DNA of 45,215 nt from Puniceicoccaceae bacterium MED-G32. GTDB lineage: Bacteria; Verrucomicrobiota; Verrucomicrobiia; Opitutales; Coraliomargaritaceae. The translations under genes and the position numbers were made by a program. Position 1 is the stretch's first letter. Every line of letters starts with the position of its first letter. The stretch is from NCBI GenBank assembly GCA_002457235.1, contig NTJV01000002.1, positions 1 through 45,215 of the forward strand, in the 5' to 3' direction. Shown here piece by piece: positions 9,484-19,314 of this stretch. The notes beneath the pieces are model-generated. The model made no database searches and had not been told where the DNA came from. It was given only the letters and a program-made list of their open reading frames with translations.

Positions 9484-10008
9484 TTATACCTCTGAGTTAG
9501 CAGTTTCTCCAAAGCGAAGTGTTTTAATTTCTTCGTTGGAACGTAATTTTTTCAATGCATCCATAGTGGCATTGACCATAGCCAAATGATTATTTGAACC
9601 TAGTGACTTGGATAAGACATTATGAACCCCTACTGCTTCAAGCACAGCACGAACTCCACCACCTGCAATCACTCCCGTACCAGTTGACGCTGGACGTAAT
9701 AATACTTTACCCCCATCGGATTCACCGAGTACATGATGAGGAATCGTATCACCTCTAAGTTGAATATTGATGATATTTTTCTTAGCATCTTCTGTCCCTT
9801 TACGAATACATTCAGGAACTTCTTTTGCTTTACCGTATCCGATGCCAACGCCTCCTTTTTGGTCGCCGACAACTACGAGCGCAGAAAAACTAAAACGACG
9901 TCCACCTTTAACCACTTTAGCACAGCGGTTAATATGTACGACCTTTTCGATCATTTCAGAAGCATCTTCGCTAGCTTCTGAAGAAAATGTTTTTTTGTTA
10001 TTACTCAT
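9484..10008 (-). CDS. rpsE: Ribosomal protein S5 (uS5)
   Basis: S5 contributes to decoding accuracy in the 30S body. The 174-residue protein has an N-terminal extension of about 20 Ser/Glu-rich residues, then the double-stranded RNA-binding domain [19 protein letters not shown] and [19 protein letters not shown], then the C-terminal domain with [29 protein letters not shown]. All core motifs are intact. It lies 6 bases after rplR and 11 bases before rplO. No Shine-Dalgarno motif is visible before the ATG (TTTTAAAATACT). Confidence 0.95.
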
Positions 10009-10014
10009 AGTATT

Positions 10015-10365
10015 TTAAAATTTCAATCCTCCCTCTCTCGCTGCATCAGCAAATGACTTAACACAGCCGTGGTAAAGGCGTCCCGAACGGTCAAAAACAA
10101 CGGTTTCAATTCCAGCTGCCTTTGCTTTTTCTGCAACTGAAAGACCTAAAGTTTTTGCACTTTCTGTATTCGCTTTAAGCTCAGAGGATTTAATCGAAGA
10201 CACATGAATTAAGGTATGACCCTTCTCATCATCAATGCACTGAGCAGTGATATTTTTATTAGAAAAATGTACGGCTAAACGAGGACGCTCAGCTGTGCCA
10301 TTTATTTTTTTACGAATACGCCAGCGACGTTTTTGTAATAGTGAAAGTTTTTTTAATGTTTTCAT
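10015..10365 (-). CDS. rplR: Ribosomal protein L18 (uL18)
   Basis: 5S rRNA-binding protein L18, 116 residues, normal length. The basic N-terminus [30 protein letters not shown] and the C-terminal [23 protein letters not shown] are typical. It is followed after 6 bases by rpsE. The start is supported by an AAAGGAG motif about a dozen bases upstream of the ATG, which overlaps the end of rplF, suggesting translational coupling. Confidence 0.95.
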
Positions 10366-10382
10366 ACAAATTAATAACTCCT

Positions 10383-10919
10383 TTATGCAGATTTCTTACC
10401 TTCCTTACGGCGAACATATTTTCCTTCAATGTGAACACCTTTACCTTTGTAGGGCTCAGCTGGATAAAATGCGTAAATGTCTGCAGTGACTTGACCGACC
10501 ATTTGCTTATCCGCACCTTCTACGGTCAATTTAGTGTTTTCTGCAATGGTTACTTTAATGCCTTCAGGGATTTCTAATTCACATGGGTGTGAATAGCCTA
10601 GAGATAAATCGAGGATTTTGCCTTTCAATGCGGCACGGAAACCAACACCTTTAATTTCTAGCTTTTTAGTGTAACCATCTACGACTCCGACAACCATTCC
10701 ATTAATAATAGAACGAGCAGTCCCAAACATGGCACGAGCGTGACGACTGTCTGAAGTGGGTGCTACTTGCACAACATTTTCAACAAGCTCAATTTTCACT
10801 GAGTTATCAAATGATTTTTTCAAAGATCCCTTCGGTCCTTCAACGGATACCGTTTGTCCTTCAATGGACACTTTTGCCTTTTCAGGAATGGGGATAGGTA
10901 ATTTTCCAATACGACTCAT
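10383..10919 (-). CDS. rplF: Ribosomal protein L6 (uL6)
   Basis: L6 of the 50S subunit, near the sarcin-ricin loop. It has 178 residues, the usual length, with the tandem L6 fold: [20 protein letters not shown] at the N-terminus and the second repeat ending in the signature [24 protein letters not shown]. It lies between rpsH and rplR as usual. A GGAG motif about ten bases upstream of the ATG supports this start. Confidence 0.96.
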
Positions 10920-10934
10920 AATAAATTTTCTCCG

Positions 10935-11333
10935 TTACCAAACTTTACAAATTAGTTCACCACCGACACCTTGCTCACGAGCATCACGAGCACGCATCAC
11001 ACCTTTAGAAGTCGTTAAAATAGCAACACCAAGTCCACCTAATACACGAGGAATATCCTTTGATCCATAATATAAACGGCGACCTGGAGTACTATGACGT
11101 TCAATCCCAGTAATTGCAGGTGTGTTTTTCACATATTTTAATTTAAGTGAAATCTGCTTAAAGCCTTTGTCGTTTTCTCCTTCAGAATAATCCAAAATAA
11201 AACCTTCTTGTTTTAAGATCTTAGCTATTGATAAACGCATTTTTGAAATTTGCGTAGTGCATACGTCTTTCTTAGCCATACTCGCATTACGAATGATGGT
11301 TAAGAAATCGCCGATTGTGTCATGAACTGCCAT
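10935..11333 (-). CDS. rpsH: Ribosomal protein S8 (uS8)
   Basis: S8 binds the central domain of 16S rRNA. The 132 residues include DTIGDFLTIIRNASMAKKD at the N-terminus and the C-terminal STPGRRLYYGSKDIPRVLGG then GVMRARDAREQGVGGELICKVW, which is the family signature region. In E. coli S8 also represses the spc operon through an rplE leader; no such site was identified here. It follows rpsN by 48 bases. No Shine-Dalgarno motif is seen before the ATG. Confidence 0.96.
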   Translation of the reverse strand: MAVHDTIGDFLTIIRNASMAKKDVCTTQISKMRLSIAKILKQEGFILDYSEGENDKGFKQISLKLKYVKNTPAITGIERHSTPGRRLYYGSKDIPRVLGGLGVAILTTSKGVMRARDAREQGVGGELICKVW

Positions 11334-11381
11334 AGTATTAGTTAATTGTTTACTGCTGGGTTTTCGATTGTTGTGTTAAAA

Positions 11382-11687
11382 TTACCAAGAAGATTTTGTC
11401 ACTCCTGGAAGTTTACCTTTGCTAGCCAGTTCACGAAATGTGATTCTGGAAAGACCAAATTTTCTGATATGGGCGCGAGGACGACCTGTGATTGAGCATC
11501 GGTTCCTTGAACGGATGGGTGAGCTATTCTTAGGCAACTTAGTTAACTTAGCTTGTGCCTTGTAGAATTCCTCATCGGTTGTTTCAGGATTAGCAAGAAT
11601 TGCTTTAAGCTCTGAACGCTTAGTTGCGAATTTTGCAATTAAACGACGACGCTTAAGATCTCTCTGTATTGCTGATTTTTTTGCCAT
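11382..11687 (-). CDS. rpsN: Ribosomal protein S14 (uS14), zinc-independent form
   Basis: S14 of the 30S head. At 101 residues it is the long form that lacks the CxxC...CxxC zinc ribbon of the short (about 61-residue) form; only a single Cys is present. The C-terminal [27 protein letters not shown] is diagnostic. Position between rplE and rpsH is standard. The ATG follows AAAAAACTTTATT with no Shine-Dalgarno sequence. Confidence 0.96.
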
Positions 11688-11705
11688 AATAAAGTTTTTT
11701 GATAG

Positions 11706-12311
11706 TTATGCTTCTACGGTTGCTTCCTCTTTTTTCTCTTCTGATTCCTCTGCTTCATCTAGCTCAGAGCTTGATTTTCGGAAAGGCATGCCCAATAAAC
11801 TGAGTAACTCTTTAGCCACTTCGTCCGTCTCGGCACTTGTATTGATAGAAATATCCATACCAATAGTCGCTGTGTTTCCTTCGGCACTCACTTCTGGAAA
11901 GATTGAGTGATCTGAGATTCCTAAAGTATAATTACCCTGTCCGTCTAGTTTAGCCGGCACTCCTCTGAAGTCACGAATGCAAGGTAGCGCAATATGAATC
12001 AAGCGAGCAAGGAAATCGTACATTGCATTGCCTCTTAAAGTGACCTTACAACCAATTGACTGACCTTCTCTGAGTTTAAAATTAGAAATACTCAATTTAG
12101 CTTTGGTAGTTACTGGATGCTGACCTGCGATCTTAGCAATTTCATCACTAACATAAGCTATATGGTTTTTATCCACACTCGCGCCATAGCCAGAATTAAT
12201 GACCACCTTCTTAATTGAGGGCACGCAATGAATATTGTTGAAATTAAATTTTTTCTTTAATTCCGGAATTACAAATTCTGTGTATTGTTTCTTTAATATT
12301 GGAGTTTCCAT
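11706..12311 (-). CDS. rplE: Ribosomal protein L5 (uL5) with acidic C-terminal tail
   Basis: 5S rRNA-binding protein L5 at the central protuberance. The core is complete: VPSIKKVVINSGYG near residue 30, SISNFKLREGQSIGCKVTLRG, and the C-terminal GMDISINTSAETDEVAKELLSLLGMPFRK. The usual length is about 180 residues; here there are 201, the extra 20 or so being an acidic run that ends KKEEATVEA. An AGAAGG motif ahead of the ATG supports this start. The gene follows rplX by 28 bases. Confidence 0.95.
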   Translation of the reverse strand: METPILKKQYTEFVIPELKKKFNFNNIHCVPSIKKVVINSGYGASVDKNHIAYVSDEIAKIAGQHPVTTKAKLSISNFKLREGQSIGCKVTLRGNAMYDFLARLIHIALPCIRDFRGVPAKLDGQGNYTLGISDHSIFPEVSAEGNTATIGMDISINTSAETDEVAKELLSLLGMPFRKSSSELDEAEESEEKKEEATVEA

Positions 12312-12339
12312 AACCTAAATCCTTCTCTATATCTTGCTA

Positions 12340-12591
12340 TTACTTTTTGCTTTTAACTTTTGTATCAAATTTTTCGGCAAGCATAACATTCGAGTAATGA
12401 ATTGATGCTTCTCTTTGGATCGAAGAACCTTCTGGGTTTTCCTGTGTCTTACGCTCGTATTTGGTTATCATATTTACACCTTCTACAAGTACACGATCAT
12501 TTCCCATGATCTCTAATACTTTGCCACGCTTACCCTTGTGAGATCCTGCGATTACTACGACTTCTTGTTCTCTTTTAATTGATTTTGCCAT
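12340..12591 (-). CDS. rplX: Ribosomal protein L24 (uL24)
   Basis: Assembly-initiator protein L24, 83 residues, at the short end of the family's usual range (about 75-105). The KOW motif is [18 protein letters not shown] at about 11-28, followed by [39 protein letters not shown] good GGAGG site about ten bases before the ATG lies within the end of rplN, with a one-base gap between the genes, which points to coupled translation. Confidence 0.94.
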
Positions 12592-12592
12592 T

Positions 12593-12955
12593 TTATAAAA
12601 CCTCCGGTGCTAGTGATATGATTTTCATATACTTTGCGCGCAATTCACGTGCAACTGGACCAAAAATACGTGTCCCTTTAGGATTACCGTCTTGATTAAT
12701 AATCACTACAGCGTTGTTGTCGAAACGAAGATAGCTTCCATCACCACGACGGATTGGCGCACGTGTGCGGACCACCACTGCTTTTACCACCTCGCCTTTT
12801 TTCACAGACGCATCGGTTGTTGATTCTTTCACTGCACAAACAACGATATCGCCAACATCAGCCGTCTTTTTGTTTTGTCCAATTCTACGAATCATCTCAG
12901 CTGACTTTGCACCTGTATTATCCGCAATAAATACGCGACTGTTCATTTGTATCAT
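12593..12955 (-). CDS. rplN: Ribosomal protein L14 (uL14)
   Basis: L14 at the subunit interface, 120 residues. It starts [24 protein letters not shown] and has the signature [48 protein letters not shown]. Two fewer residues than the most common form, without effect on conserved regions. ACGGAGAATAAAGCT precedes the ATG and supplies a Shine-Dalgarno site. It lies between rpsQ and rplX as usual. Confidence 0.96.
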
Positions 12956-12995
12956 AGCTTTATTCTCCGTTTAAATTCTTCTTTTTAGTTTAAAT

Positions 12996-13277
12996 TTACT
13001 CGTCCCCTAATTTTGGTGCGACTTCAATCACTCGAGTCACTCTCCAACGTTTTAGTTTACTCAATGGACGTGTCTCCATAATTTCTACCTTATCTCCAAG
13101 GCCACACTCATTCTTCTCATCGTGGACATGCAACACAGTCTTGCGCTTAATTTCCTTACGGTACAGAGGATGAGGGATCTTATAAAAATAAGTTACCTTG
13201 ATCGTCTTGTCACCTGAACGACTTGTCACAGTTCCAATTAGATTTTTTCTAGAATTACGTTTTAAGACAGTTTCCAT
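12996..13277 (-). CDS. rpsQ: Ribosomal protein S17 (uS17)
   Basis: S17 binds the 5' domain of 16S rRNA. The 93 residues contain the OB fold with RKNLIGTVTSRSGDKTIKVTYFYKIPHPLYRKEIKRK and the signature LGDKVEIMETRPLSKLKRWRV. It follows rpmC by 18 bases and precedes rplN. The ATG is preceded by an A-rich stretch (AATTAAAGAAA) and no good Shine-Dalgarno site. Confidence 0.94.
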   Translation of the reverse strand: METVLKRNSRKNLIGTVTSRSGDKTIKVTYFYKIPHPLYRKEIKRKTVLHVHDEKNECGLGDKVEIMETRPLSKLKRWRVTRVIEVAPKLGDE

Positions 13278-13295
13278 TTTCTTTAATTTTATTAA

Positions 13296-13499
13296 TTAAG
13301 CAGAAGTGCTCGCCAATTTCTTCTCCTTTAAAATAGTTTCCAAACGAGCGATATCTCTTCTTAAATTTTTTAGTTTGTGCGTTTCTTCGACTTGCCCTGT
13401 CTGTTTGCTCATACGCATTTTTACATGCTCATCTCTTGTATCACGAAGTTTCTTTTCCACTTCGATTTCAGACAGTTCATGAATATCTTTTGTTTTCAT
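13296..13499 (-). CDS. rpmC: Ribosomal protein L29 (uL29)
   Basis: L29, at the polypeptide exit site and part of the docking surface for trigger factor and SRP. The 67 residues form the expected two-helix hairpin: MKTKDIHELSEIEVEKKLRD, then MRMSKQTGQVEETHKLKNLRRDIARLETILKEK. It lies in its standard place between rplP and rpsQ. The start ATG follows AAAAATAAAGAT without a clear Shine-Dalgarno site. Confidence 0.93.
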   Translation of the reverse strand: MKTKDIHELSEIEVEKKLRDTRDEHVKMRMSKQTGQVEETHKLKNLRRDIARLETILKEKKLASTSA

Positions 13500-13529
13500 A
13501 TCTTTATTTTTTAAATTCTTAATGTAGGA

Positions 13530-13946
13530 TTAAATCTCATCACGGCTGACAAACCGGCATCTGAATGGCAATTTAGTATCAGCCAAACGTAAAGCTTCTC
13601 TCGCTGCAGTTTCTGAGCAACCTGCCACTTCAAAGAGCATTGTTCCAGGACGAATAACCGCTACCCATTTTTCAACTGAACCTTTACCTTTACCCATTCG
13701 AGTTTCTGCTGGTTTTTTCGTCACTGGCTTATGAGGGAAAACACGAATCCATACCTTACCTTTACGCTTAAGACTACGAGTCATTGCCACACGAGCTGCT
13801 TCAATTTGACGTGATGTCATACGACCACGACTCAATGACTGGATACCAAATTCACCAAAAGCAATGGTATTCCCTTTTTGTGCAGTACCATAAATGCGTC
13901 CTGTATGAACTTTTCTGTATTTTGTTCTAGAGGGTATTTGTGCCAT
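13530..13946 (-). CDS. rplP: Ribosomal protein L16 (uL16)
   Basis: L16 contacts the A-site tRNA elbow and is needed for peptidyl-transferase activity. The 138 residues are normal in length, with [14 protein letters not shown] at the N-terminus, [27 protein letters not shown], and the signature [32 protein letters not shown] run AAGGAAG about seven bases before the ATG is a plausible Shine-Dalgarno site. It lies between rpsC and rpmC. Confidence 0.96.
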
Positions 13947-13990
13947 AATTTACTTCCTTATTCCGTTCTCTAAATGATTAAAAATTTTGA

Positions 13991-14626
13991 TTAAAGTGCG
14001 CTTTCTCCGTCAGGTAAACAGATCCAACATTTCACACCAATGATTCCATACACCGTACTTGCTTCACTGAAGCCGTAGTTAATATTGGCACGTAATGTTT
14101 GCAAAGGCACTTTTCCTGAACGTTGCTGTTCTGTACGAGCGATATCAGCTCCACCTAGACGACCTGAACATTGAATACGAATTCCTTCTGCTCCCAGTGA
14201 AGTGGTTGTCTGTACCGCACGTTTCATCGCACGGCGGAAAGCGATTCTTCGCTCAAGTTGTAAAGCTACGTTTTCTGCGACTAATTGTGCAGAAAGGTCT
14301 GGTCGTTTCACTTCTTGAATATCAAGCATCACATCCTTACCAACTTTTTTATTCAATTCAGTCTTTAACTTATCCAACTCTTGTCCTTTGCGGCCGATCA
14401 CAATACCAGGGCGAGCGGTATAGATCTTCACACGAATGCGACCTGATGCACGCTCAATAAAAATACGAGGCACAGAGGCATAACGCAGTTTCTTCTCTAG
14501 AAACGTTCTGATCAGATAATCTTCCTTAACATACACAGGAAAATCTTGTTTATTGGCATACCAGCGTGAATCCCAGTCCTTTGTGACTGCGAGACGGAAA
14601 CCTATTGGATGTGTTTTTTGACCCAT
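13991..14626 (-). CDS. rpsC: Ribosomal protein S3 (uS3)
   Basis: S3 lines the mRNA entry channel. The 211 residues comprise an N-terminal type-II KH domain with the GRKG loop (IVIGRKGQELDKLK) and a C-terminal domain with IRIQCSGRLGGADIARTEQ and NINYGFSEASTVYGIIGVKCWI, both family signatures. It starts MGQKTHPIGFRLAVTKDWDSRWYA, as in most bacteria, and ends soon after the core with no long tail. It follows rplV by 18 bases. AT-rich sequence (AAATATT) and no Shine-Dalgarno motif precede the ATG. Confidence 0.96.
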   Translation of the reverse strand: MGQKTHPIGFRLAVTKDWDSRWYANKQDFPVYVKEDYLIRTFLEKKLRYASVPRIFIERASGRIRVKIYTARPGIVIGRKGQELDKLKTELNKKVGKDVMLDIQEVKRPDLSAQLVAENVALQLERRIAFRRAMKRAVQTTTSLGAEGIRIQCSGRLGGADIARTEQQRSGKVPLQTLRANINYGFSEASTVYGIIGVKCWICLPDGESAL

Positions 14627-14644
14627 AATATTTATTTTCTAAAA

Positions 14645-14980
14645 TTAATTTTCGTCAGTTAAGACAATACGAATGTGACTAGTTCTTTTCTTATAAGGAT
14701 GAGCAGAACCTCTTGCGGCAGGACGAAAACGTTTAAATGCAGGACCTTCTTCAATGATCGTTGATTTGATAGTCAATGTATCTGACGATAAATTGTTATT
14801 GTTCTCTGCGTTAGCAATCGCTGACTTCAATGTCTTACCAATAAGGCGTGCGGATTTACGAGGGATTAGGCTTAACATTTCCAATGCCTCTCCTGCATTA
14901 CGTCCTTGAATCGCACGAGCAACCTTCCTCACCTTTAAGGGCGACATTCTTGTGTATTTTGTGTAAGCTTTAACTTCCAT
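14645..14980 (-). CDS. rplV: Ribosomal protein L22 (uL22)
   Basis: L22 lines the peptide exit tunnel. The 111 residues include YTRMSPLKVRKVARAIQGRN at the N-terminus, the ENNNNLSSDTLTIKSTIIEEGPAFKRFRPAARGSAHPY region with the beta-hairpin that reaches the tunnel, and a short C-terminus. In most bacteria rpsS is directly upstream; here a gene for an exported protein (14993-15382) intervenes, leaving only 12 bases to this start. Confidence 0.95.
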   Translation of the reverse strand: MEVKAYTKYTRMSPLKVRKVARAIQGRNAGEALEMLSLIPRKSARLIGKTLKSAIANAENNNNLSSDTLTIKSTIIEEGPAFKRFRPAARGSAHPYKKRTSHIRIVLTDEN

Positions 14981-14992
14981 AGTGATAATAAA

Positions 14993-15382
14993 TTAACTGT
15001 TTCTAAAAGTATTTAATTGAACATAATCTCCAGCTTCGATCACTCGATTGTCATTCAGTTCCAAAATCAGTGCCGCTGATTGATACTGCTCTGTTGCCAC
15101 AAAGATGACCGAGCCTATTTTTTCTGATCCACGAAAGACGGAAGCAGTCATTCCAATATCTAAGCCTGCGTCTAAACCATTATCTAAATAAACTACGGCA
15201 ATATTTGCTGAATCACTGACTTTGGTAACCTGTGCTAAATTTGGAGCATACAATCCAGATCCATCAGTCACAAAACTAGGAACGGAAGCCGATACTGCAC
15301 TCACTGAAAGCAAAAACATCACACATAAACTCCCAATGAGTGAGTGTGTGAGGGTCATAAGACTGTTACGTTTAGCTTTCAT
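14993..15382 (-). CDS. Small exported protein of unknown function inside the S10 operon
   Basis: I do not recognise a named family. The 129-residue protein has a Sec signal peptide: basic MKAKR, a hydrophobic stretch at about residues 13-30, and a probable cut after VSA near 32. The mature part (about 95 residues) has the pattern VVYLDNGLDAGLDIGMTASV, then IGSVIFV, then VIEAGDYVQL. This resembles the small beta-barrel seen in the C-terminal region of FlgT-like and other envelope proteins (a 'dGl..Gm...V.r....iG.v.v......a......... i..GD.V' pattern); that likeness is inference. It lies 21 bases after rpsS and 12 before rplV, on the same strand, so it must be co-transcribed with ribosomal proteins. 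No Shine-Dalgarno motif precedes the ATG. Confidence 0.85.
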   Translation of the reverse strand: MKAKRNSLMTLTHSLIGSLCVMFLLSVSAVSASVPSFVTDGSGLYAPNLAQVTKVSDSANIAVVYLDNGLDAGLDIGMTASVFRGSEKIGSVIFVATEQYQSAALILELNDNRVIEAGDYVQLNTFRNS

Positions 15383-15403
15383 TATTATTGTTTTCTAAAT
15401 CAA

Positions 15404-15673
15404 TTACTTCGCTTTACCTGCTGGGTGTCCTTTAAAAGTACGTGTTGGCGAAAATTCACCTAACTTATGACCCACCATATTTTCTGTCACATAGACAGGA
15501 AGAAATGATTTGCCATTATGTACGCTGAAATTGAGTCCCACAAAATCTGGAGTGATCGTAGAACGACGAGACCATGTTTGGATTGGCTTGCGATCATTAA
15601 TCGCCTGAGCCGCTTCCACCTTTTTTACAAGGTGAACATCAACAAAAAAACCTTTTTTAATAGATCGTGACAT
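15404..15673 (-). CDS. rpsS: Ribosomal protein S19 (uS19)
   Basis: S19 of the 30S head, 89 residues, normal length. It starts [20 protein letters not shown] and carries [50 protein letters not shown], the family signature. It follows rplB by 8 bases. Downstream the usual rplV is displaced by an inserted gene for an exported protein. The upstream sequence AATAATAAGTATT has no Shine-Dalgarno motif. Confidence 0.96.
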
Positions 15674-15681
15674 AATACTTA

Positions 15682-16527
15682 TTATTTGCGCTTCATTGGA
15701 CGTCCATTGCGACGCACAAGAATTTGTGAATTAGTTGGATTAGATTTCTTACGAGTTGGGAAGCCTTTAGATAATTGACCCCAAGGTGATTGAGGGTGAC
15801 CACCACCGGAAGTACGACCTTCACCACCACCCATTGGGTGATCGACAGGATTCATGGCCACACCACGAACACGTGGACGGCGGCCTAACCAGCGATTTCG
15901 CCCAGCTTTACCTAAGCTACGGCCTTCATGTTCATGATTACCCACTTCACCGATCGTTGCGCGGCAACGGGCATTTAAAAAGCGAATTTCACCCGAAGGC
16001 AACTTGATCGTGACACGCTCTCCATCGACCTTGATCAATTGAGCCGCCTCACCTGCAGAACGCACAAGCTGTGCCCCTCTTCCAGGGTGAAGTTCTACCG
16101 CATGTATTTTAGTTGCTGGTGGGATTAATGCTAGTGGGAAACTATAACCCACTGAAAATTCAATTTTTTTACTAGAGCTAATTAAAGTATCGCCTGCTTG
16201 AACACCTCTAGGTGCTAAAATATAACGCTTTTCACCATCCGCATAAGCGAGTAAAGCGATATTTGCGGAGCGATTTGGATCATACTCAATTGCTTGCACT
16301 TTAGCAGGAATATCAATTTTGTCTCTACGGAAATCAATCAAGCGGTAGTGCTTCTTATGGCCTCCACCTCTACGACGAGAAGTAATTCGACCGTAGCAAT
16401 TACGACCTTTCTTTTCATGCTTAGAAACAGTGAGTTGTTTCTCAGGTCTTTTCTTTGCGACATCCGCTTTGTTTCTAATTAGGAAACGTTGTCCGGGAGT
16501 CAGTGGTCTAGATTTTACAAGTGGCAT
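15682..16527 (-). CDS. rplB: Ribosomal protein L2 (uL2)
   Basis: L2 is needed for subunit association and peptidyl transfer. The 281 residues have the RNA-binding domain ([21 protein letters not shown] at about 51-71) and the C-terminal signature [19 protein letters not shown], which includes the conserved His of the peptidyl-transferase region, followed by [29 protein letters not shown] before the ATG is a good Shine-Dalgarno site. It lies between rplW and rpsS. Confidence 0.97.
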
Positions 16528-16546
16528 GGTCTTATTCTCCTAAAAA

Positions 16547-16837
16547 TTATACGATTTCTATAGTGTCTCCGTCCTTTAAGCTAACGATTGCTTTTTTATA
16601 CCCGCTTTTAGTTCCAGTCTTACCTCTACGGCTACGATCTGACTTCAGCTTCGGCTTTACGTTTAAAATATTCACACGAGTCACAGCGACGTTGAATAAC
16701 TTTTCAATAGCACGTGCGACCTCAATACGATTCGCATTTGCTGCTACCTTAAAGGTATACTGATTGATGTTAGCGGAGAGATTTGCCGCTTTTTCAGTCA
16801 CAATGTATGATTTGATGATTGTATCAGGAACTAACAT
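16547..16837 (-). CDS. rplW: Ribosomal protein L23 (uL23)
   Basis: L23, a component of the exit-site docking platform for trigger factor and SRP. The 96 residues contain IIKSYIVTEKAANLSANINQYTFKVAANANRIEVARAIEKLFNV and the loop with VNILNVKPKLKSDRSRRGKTG. Its ATG overlaps the rplD stop by one base (TAATG), and an AAAGGAG motif inside the end of rplD supports coupled translation. Confidence 0.95.
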   Translation of the reverse strand: MLVPDTIIKSYIVTEKAANLSANINQYTFKVAANANRIEVARAIEKLFNVAVTRVNILNVKPKLKSDRSRRGKTGTKSGYKKAIVSLKDGDTIEIV

Positions 16838-17481
16838 TACTCGTCTCCTTTCCCATCAGCCGCACGGGCGATGATTGTTTCAATCGCTTTTGAACTCACG
16901 ATCACGTTTTGAAATTTTACGATGTCTAAAACACTAAGGTCACCTGACTCAGCCAGAGACACACCTTGAATATTACGAGCCGCATAGGCTGTGTTTTCCT
17001 CAAAAGTATCATCTACAACCAAGACTTTACAGCGTTTTGGGTAAACATTCTTTAAGACATTATTGAAAATCTTTGTTTTTGGAGCTTCAACCGCTAAGTC
17101 CTCAATTACAGACAAGCCACCTGCTGATGCACGATCAAAAAGCGCTCTCTGCATCGCTAACTGACGCATCTTGCGATTTGTTTTTTGCGAGTAATCCCTT
17201 GGCTTTGGTCCATGGGCGACACCACCGTGTCTTTGGTGTGGGACTCGACGTGATCCTTGCCGAGCTGTACCGCTTCCTTTTTGGCGGAAGAGTTTCTTTC
17301 CAGAACCTGCGACTTCAGCACGAGTCTTAGTCGATGCATTCCCTTGACGCTTGTTCGCCTGCTGAGCAATGACCACTTGTCTTAAAGTTGCAATTCCGCG
17401 ATCTCCTTCAAACTCTGGGAAATGAGGAAAGTCTTTTTCTGTGCTACTTGAGCCGTCTGCTTTAAATACTTTTAATTTCAT
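16837..17481 (-). CDS. rplD: Ribosomal protein L4 (uL4)
   Basis: L4 lines the exit tunnel and in proteobacteria also represses the S10 operon. The 214 residues include the extended tunnel loop rich in basic residues, RAEVAGSGKKLFRQKGSGTARQGSRRVPHQRHGGVAHGPKPR (about 55-95), and the C-terminal domain with AIETIIARAADG. It is 21 bases after rplC, with AAGGAG ahead of the ATG. Because rpsJ is separated from rplC here, the classical S10-leader attenuation by L4 cannot work in its usual form. Confidence 0.95.
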   Translation of the reverse strand: MKLKVFKADGSSSTEKDFPHFPEFEGDRGIATLRQVVIAQQANKRQGNASTKTRAEVAGSGKKLFRQKGSGTARQGSRRVPHQRHGGVAHGPKPRDYSQKTNRKMRQLAMQRALFDRASAGGLSVIEDLAVEAPKTKIFNNVLKNVYPKRCKVLVVDDTFEENTAYAARNIQGVSLAESGDLSVLDIVKFQNVIVSSKAIETIIARAADGKGDE

Positions 17482-17502
17482 ACGTAATTCTTCGCTCCTT
17501 AA

Positions 17503-18147
17503 TTATGCGTGTGCTCGCTTTTGTTTCACCGCAGTTCGTACCGTCACTAAACTGCCTTTATTTCCAGGGACACTGCCCTTAATTAAAATCAAGTTCTTAT
17601 CAGCGATCACTTTCACCACTTTAAGATTTTGTACAGTACGCTGAACATCGCCCATATGACCTGGCATTTTCTTACCTTTAATCACGTGACCTGGCCATTG
17701 GCACATACCATAAGAACCACCACGACGATGGAACATAGAACCGTGTGATGCAGGACCCCCAGCGAAACCATAGCGTTTTACTACACCTTGGAATCCTCGA
17801 CCTTTACTTGTCCCGATGATGTCAATCTTTTGTCCCGCTTCAAAGCGATCCACTGTTAAAACATCACCCACATTCAATTCTGTGTCTCCCGAAGTTCTGA
17901 ATTCTTGCAAATTTGATATCGGCTCTACCTTTGCTTTATACACATGACCCAATTCTGCTTTAGATAAGCGATGGGCTTTCTGTGAACCGTAGCCGAGCTG
18001 TATCGCATCATAGCCATCAGTATCCACTGACTTAATTTGAACGACTGGACAGGGTCCAGCTTCTATCACTGTCACAGGCACGAGGCGATTGTCCTCATCG
18101 AAGACCTGAGACATACCTAATTTTTTTCCTAAAAGGGCTATATTCAT
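17503..18147 (-). CDS. rplC: Ribosomal protein L3 (uL3)
   Basis: L3, an early assembly protein near the peptidyl-transferase centre. The 214 residues start MNIALLGKKLGMSQVFDEDNRLVPVTVIEAGPC and contain the signature GFQGVVKRYGFAGGPASHGSMFHRRGGSYGMCQWPGHVIKGKKMPGHMG. It is the first gene of its run: upstream, in place of rpsJ, lies a 384-base gap and then a plus-strand PEP-CTERM gene. It must therefore have its own promoter between 18148 and about 18400, which I could not pin down. No Shine-Dalgarno motif precedes the ATG. Confidence 0.96.
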   Translation of the reverse strand: MNIALLGKKLGMSQVFDEDNRLVPVTVIEAGPCPVVQIKSVDTDGYDAIQLGYGSQKAHRLSKAELGHVYKAKVEPISNLQEFRTSGDTELNVGDVLTVDRFEAGQKIDIIGTSKGRGFQGVVKRYGFAGGPASHGSMFHRRGGSYGMCQWPGHVIKGKKMPGHMGDVQRTVQNLKVVKVIADKNLILIKGSVPGNKGSLVTVRTAVKQKRAHA

Positions 18148-18531: not shown

Positions 18532-19314
18532 ATGAAATGGAATCTATTATTCAAATTATTATCTGTCCGTTCTAACTTCAGTAAATGCGGATTCTTATTC
18601 TTAGGCTCTATTTTAGCTATTAATCATAGCTTATTCTCTTATAATTTATTTATAGGAGACATTAAATTTTCTGATCCAGTTCACCCAAACCAGACAGAAA
18701 ATCTCCCTTTAGAAGAAGTCATTGATGGCGATACCTCTACCGCTGGTTGGACATTAGCAAAAGATGCTGGTGTTGGTAGTATAATAGCACACTCCATTGA
18801 TGTGACTCTGGCTCAGCCCACTATACCGACACTACAACCCGGTGAGCGAGTGGATCATTACACCTAAAGCATCTCTTACCATTACGAGGGTATAAACTCG
18901 CCCAAAGACTATATGTTGGAGACGCGGTTTAATGGACAGGATGAATCACAAGCTCAGATTAATTTCGATAGCCTAAGCACGAATTATGGGGCAAATACCA
19001 TTTCTGTAGGTCCTGCTCCAGCAGGCCATCCATTGGCACCACAAGGGTCCCCGGGTATGATAACCACGACCGATCCAGAATCGACTCCCCCCTCCATTGT
19101 TATTCATACACTAGTTTTTAAAGGCAATACTCCACTTGAATTTTTAAGACTTAATACAATTTTAAATTCAGGTTGGACTGATGGCAGTCTTGTACTCAAT
19201 GAGGTGACTGGCATTGTTTCAGCAGAAATTGTCCCTGAGCCTTCAACCTATGCACTGCTCGCTGGTATTGTCGCGTTTGCCTTTATCGCTAAGAGAAAAC
19301 GCACCAAAGCTTAA
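18532..19314 (+). pseudogene. PEP-CTERM surface protein gene interrupted by an in-frame stop
   Basis: A single plus-strand frame encodes 259 residues but is broken by a TAA at 18865-18867. The first part (111 residues) has a hydrophobic N-terminal segment (about 19-41) of signal-peptide type. The second part resumes in the same frame without any base shift (SISYHYEGINSPKDY...) and ends with the PEP-CTERM sorting signal: VPEPSTYALL, a hydrophobic segment, then KRKR. Such proteins are recognised by an exosortase and placed on the cell surface or in matrix. The only difference from an intact gene is one codon; CAA to TAA would suffice. No sense-recoding of TAA is known in related bacteria, so loss of function or a sequencing error is likelier. 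It lies against the flow of the ribosomal genes. Confidence 0.85.

Follow-up and report, generated by a model that had tools for sequence, protein, structure and literature searches.

The rpsS and rplV genes are adjacent in most bacteria, and few bacterial gene orders are as stable as that of the S10 operon. Non-ribosomal genes do occur in ribosomal-protein operons, as secY, map and rpoA illustrate, all three being near-universal housekeeping genes of known function. They are also present in the 45,215-nt stretch of the Puniceicoccaceae bacterium MED-G32 genome analyzed here (hereafter the window). Like them, the gene described in this study, which we call X, is a non-ribosomal gene inside the S10-spc-alpha run; unlike them, X is uncharacterized and its product is predicted to be exported.

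Among envelope proteins of known structure, the C-domain of FlgT (PF16538; flagellar H ring; PDB 3w1e, 8z5n) and MreC (PDB 7eft, 2j5u) come closest to X in fold, which agrees with an earlier sequence-only reading of X as an envelope-type protein. The FlgT C-domain shares its barrel fold with X, and X is predicted to be exported, as FlgT is. MreC and the long form of X found in other lineages have a common order of N-terminal signal or transmembrane (TM) segment, coiled coil and beta-barrel. The differences are equally clear. X, at 129 aa, has one barrel and none of the other FlgT domains, and it lies in the S10 operon, not in a flagellar context; MreC has two barrels, whereas the models of X and of its long form have one, and X is not in an mre operon. 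A further point of comparison is the PVC signature protein CT421.2, which occurs in Chlamydiae and measures about 53-80 aa (PMC3444138). Both it and X are small conserved superphylum proteins without an assigned function, but they are different proteins.

Gene X between rpsS and rplV

X extends from 14993 to 15382 on the minus strand of the window, 129 codons from ATG to stop. Its upstream neighbour is rpsS, encoding S19 (15404 to 15673, minus strand; Pfam PF00203 match at 15425-15667), and its downstream neighbour is rplV, encoding L22 (14645 to 14980, minus strand), identified by tblastn orthology across loci. On the same strand, 21 bp separate the rpsS stop from the X start (15383 to 15403) and 12 bp the X stop from the rplV start (14981 to 14992). 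The sequence-only reading had described a 129-residue ORF packed between rpsS and rplV, 21 bases from the former and 12 from the latter, all on one strand; the ORF coordinates confirm each of these points and place the three genes on the minus strand. The remaining S10-spc run, rplC to rpsE (9484 to 18147), is likewise on the minus strand. The plus strand of 14993-15382 contains 11 stops. Within 14600-15720, no promoter-like site was seen on the minus strand and no terminator-like site at all, and no Rfam family matched near X.

The window's own genome, an incomplete assembly of 671 kb, holds one copy of X. The codon-usage log-ratio of X is 0.003, compared with 0.015 to 0.138 for ribosomal genes (one at -0.032) and -0.066 to 0.004 for the others. 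By this measure X shows no sign of ribosomal-level expression and borders the non-ribosomal genes.

Elsewhere in the window, two plus-strand ORFs (18532-19314) lie between rplC and rpsJ, on the opposite strand inside the S10 operon. The second ends in a PEP-CTERM-like tail (VPEPSTYALLAGIVAFAFIAKRKRTKA), and together the two resemble one broken sorted-protein gene.

Predicted export signal and barrel fold

By eye, the N-terminus of X, MKAKRNSLMTLTHSLIGSLCVMFLLSVSAVSA with the next residue S, has the signature of a Sec signal peptide, comprising an n-region KAKR, a hydrophobic core and an AXA-type site. The putative signal peptide covers residues 1-32 (15287 to 15382, minus strand), with an AF2-modeled helix at residues 7-25 and predicted cleavage between VSA and S after residue 32. 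Across the copies found in the rpsS-rplV slot, 134 of 135 carry at the N-terminus a hydrophobic segment for export or anchoring, and the start of the sole exception may be misplaced. A lipobox pattern is matched by 12 of the 135, some of them doubtful. The signal peptide claimed by the sequence-only reading fits both the signature in X and the N-termini of the slot copies, and the X product is a candidate for export via a cleavable Sec signal.

That reading had also expected a beta-rich mature region carrying the pattern 'D.GLdiGM...V.RG..kiGsv'. AF2, Foldseek and VIA-align delimit a six-stranded beta-barrel domain at residues 46-126 (15005 to 15247, minus strand); in the AF2 model the six strands lie at residues 49-123, with pLDDT above 90 in most of the barrel. 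The quoted motif proved to be the conserved core of the X family. Two columns of alignment A1 are invariant, G69 and G77, and the C-terminus is variable in both alignments (A1 and A2), the folded barrel being the conserved part. The AF2 model of the long form shows helices followed by the same barrel, at a pTM of 0.37, so that the mutual placement of helices and barrel is uncertain.

FlgT heads the structural matches of both forms. For the long form, the Foldseek list is led by FlgT 8z5n (E 4.6e-5) and 3w1e (E 1.6e-4), with MreC entries below. For X itself, VIA-align places FlgT 8z5n_0 at Z 10.6 (rmsd 2.2, 75 aligned residues) at the top of a tied list that includes the F1-ATPase N-barrels (Z 10.2-10.6). 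Because the X barrel matches the F1-ATPase chains equally well, the likeness to FlgT indicates a shared fold only, and the fold alone is no proof of envelope function.

Sequence searches gave weaker signals. The X protein had no Pfam match even at E up to 10, and among the matches listed for X and the long forms no Pfam or NCBIfam model reached its cut-off. FlgT_C matched 6 of 14 long forms weakly (best E 3.5e-4), below its gathering cut-off of 27 bits: the first long form scored 14.3 bits, and the best of the 14 is estimated near 22. Matches to NCBIfam MreC models were weak as well, with E 0.019 for X (14.1 against a cut-off of 505 bits) and a best E of 7.7e-6 for the long forms (17.8 against 343 bits). 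PDB sequence searches returned nothing convincing. Weak matches to FeoA, SMC, INO80F and similar entries were set aside as single or coiled-coil matches. Overall, profile search and structure prediction yielded family-wide homologues and a predicted envelope-type barrel behind a predicted export signal, and not the structure bare of export features that would have spoken against the sequence-only reading.

Distribution, loss and selection in the Verrucomicrobiota

Among the window's kin, 42 of 57 genomes gave an X homologue. Within its own family, X lies between rpsS and rplV in all 30 loci read, and 34 of 37 genomes keep it, the reverse of the absence from close relatives with signs of decay that would have spoken against the sequence-only reading. 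For the order Opitutales, we found rpsS in 93 of 103 genomes and read the interval downstream of it; X is present in 47 of the 89 intervals with both neighbours, representing 13 of 26 families. One additional case at a contig break would raise the families to 14. In the large Opitutales intervals, the ORFs match the X profile, short overlapping frames aside.

At class level, the profile search matched 118 of 141 genomes. By coordinate matching, at least 75 of 114 class genomes outside Opitutales have X immediately after rpsS, a lower bound to which interval reading added at least one more. These copies are mostly 236-290 aa and consist of a signal peptide, a coiled coil and the same barrel. 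Among 195 genomes of the phylum, by-eye coordinate matching and the reading of 13 intervals put X in the slot in ten further families. We define the slot family, to which X belongs, by barrel homology and by position between rpsS and rplV. The gene's retention at this place in relatives, to which the sequence-only reading had pointed as a check, extends across Verrucomicrobiota, the phylum within which we traced its range. Over 109 distinct proteins, the gaps of X to rpsS and rplV have medians of 19 and 12 bp, the latter ranging from 2 to 97 bp. These results show an ancient retention of X in the Verrucomicrobiota S10 operon. A recent insertion in a single genome is ruled out by this distribution.

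One genome (G336) has rpsS elsewhere, and its X remains 1 bp from rplV, with the frame broken near a run of A. The S10 operon of G336 is split (locus L204, 1500-2400), with a transposase-like ORF upstream.

Where X is missing, rpsS and rplV are nearly always less than 200 bp apart. The distribution of interval lengths is bimodal: among 199 loci, repeats included, 53 measure 60 bp or less, 137 exceed 330 bp and nine fall between. No X remnant was detected in the intermediate empty intervals (61-218 bp), nor in the sole large interval without X, one of 552 bp. On a tree of rpsS, rplV, rplB and rpsC, built by a quick method, the presence and absence of X needs at least 17 changes, which suggests that many lineages do without it. 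X has probably been lost repeatedly. One origin followed by many losses is the simplest reading, since independent gains would need the same homologue to enter the same slot; the change count alone fits gain as well as loss, and transfer of operon segments may also have taken part.

In twelve pairs, the dN/dS of the mature part of X is 0.05-0.22, and in most pairs the signal region changes faster than the mature part. Mature X is therefore under purifying selection, which implies that the protein itself matters and says nothing about whether its place does. Homologues in the same slot phylum-wide, together with this selection, make X more than a product of chance; homology, slot and dN/dS rule out a chance ORF or artefact.

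Copies with a TM segment, a coiled coil and the barrel also occur elsewhere in the genomes as X paralogues in mixed neighbourhoods. In genome G220, two of them stand in tandem (locus L218, 3984-4760 and 4808-5623) beside dnaX-like and ybaB-like genes.

G220 belongs to a genus (g70) that we take to be Akkermansia, given that an A. muciniphila 16S primer site occurs three times in G220 and G156. The gene order in G220 is rpsJ-rplC-rplD-rplW-rplB-rpsS-X-rplV-rpsC-rplP. In A. muciniphila, rplP and rpsJ carry the tags AMUC_RS01690 and AMUC_RS01735 (PMC7671984), and counting tags between them, X would be AMUC_RS01705. The ribosomal cluster Amuc_0294-0308 of this species is reported to be upregulated together (PMC11480725), and by the same counting X would lie inside it. 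The S10 and spc runs of A. muciniphila seem to be apart, the L24, L5, S8, L6 and L18 genes carrying the distant tags AMUC_RS04995-05015 (PMC7671984).

Possible role of X and of its position

Our judgement is evenly balanced on whether the product of X, made from the S10 mRNA, serves outside the cytoplasm as a scaffold or adaptor of the envelope. X would be translated between S19 and L22, and its N-terminal signal would take the chain through Sec, after which the product would be cleaved or, in some lineages, anchored by a lipid or in the membrane. In the cell envelope, the FlgT-C/MreC-like C-terminal barrel may then serve protein-protein contacts as a scaffold or adaptor, the coiled coil acting as a spacer in the long form and the short Opitutales form doing without one. 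Its position in the operon would tie the dose of X to ribosome synthesis. We infer the scaffold role, the co-transcription and the dose coupling alike. The link of growth rate to the envelope or the Sec pathway that the sequence-only reading proposed gained no support here: the codon usage of X borders that of non-ribosomal genes, and many lineages lack X. It seems unlikely that X is part of a circuit keeping envelope growth or Sec load in step with the making of ribosomes, whether through the dose of X or through its nascent chain acting on rplV.

The main rival, which we regard as possible but doubtful, is that an exported-protein gene came into the operon a single time, in an ancestor, and is a passenger there, with a job unrelated to ribosomes or growth rate; it would have stayed because constitutive expression does no harm and its removal could upset rplV translation. 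It owes its rank to the scattered absence of X, with 17 or more changes across the tree and intervals down to 0-60 bp, and to its ordinary codon usage. Paralogues with the same barrel that live elsewhere without ribosomal neighbours point the same way, yet one slot has been kept phylum-wide, no copy was seen to have moved away from rplV, and the X protein is under purifying selection, silent though this is on place.

Two further explanations give the nascent chain or its signal the leading part. X could act in cis on rplV as SecM, VemP and MifM do, letting Sec capacity adjust the synthesis of ribosomal proteins. Its location directly upstream of rplV at a short distance would suit such a sensor, as would the copy in G336 that stays beside rplV in spite of the displaced rpsS, although that copy is frame-broken. 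We consider this quite improbable, as A1 and A2 lack a conserved arrest-like motif at the C-terminus, where the residues vary while the barrel is conserved, many lineages that keep rplV lack X, and no Rfam element lies nearby. Still more remote is the idea that the signal peptide of X serves to bring the S10 polysome to the membrane, with the exported product secondary: nearly every copy does keep an export or anchor segment despite fast sequence change, but conservation is higher in the mature domain than in the signal.

The envelope scaffold or adaptor thus remains our preferred reading. In the literature we found no report of localisation, expression or phenotype for X, and no paper naming X, its slot or its Akkermansia tag or accession; subscription literature lay mostly outside this search, which is accordingly no proof of novelty. 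What seems new here is a non-ribosomal gene in a ribosomal operon that is predicted to be exported, is uncharacterized and is retained across a phylum. X offers a clearly delimited target for work on Akkermansia muciniphila and further Verrucomicrobiota in culture, as well as a genomic marker, and the many lineages without it provide a natural test of what such a position is worth. In this way, X could make it possible to test how envelope growth and ribosome output are matched in bacteria.
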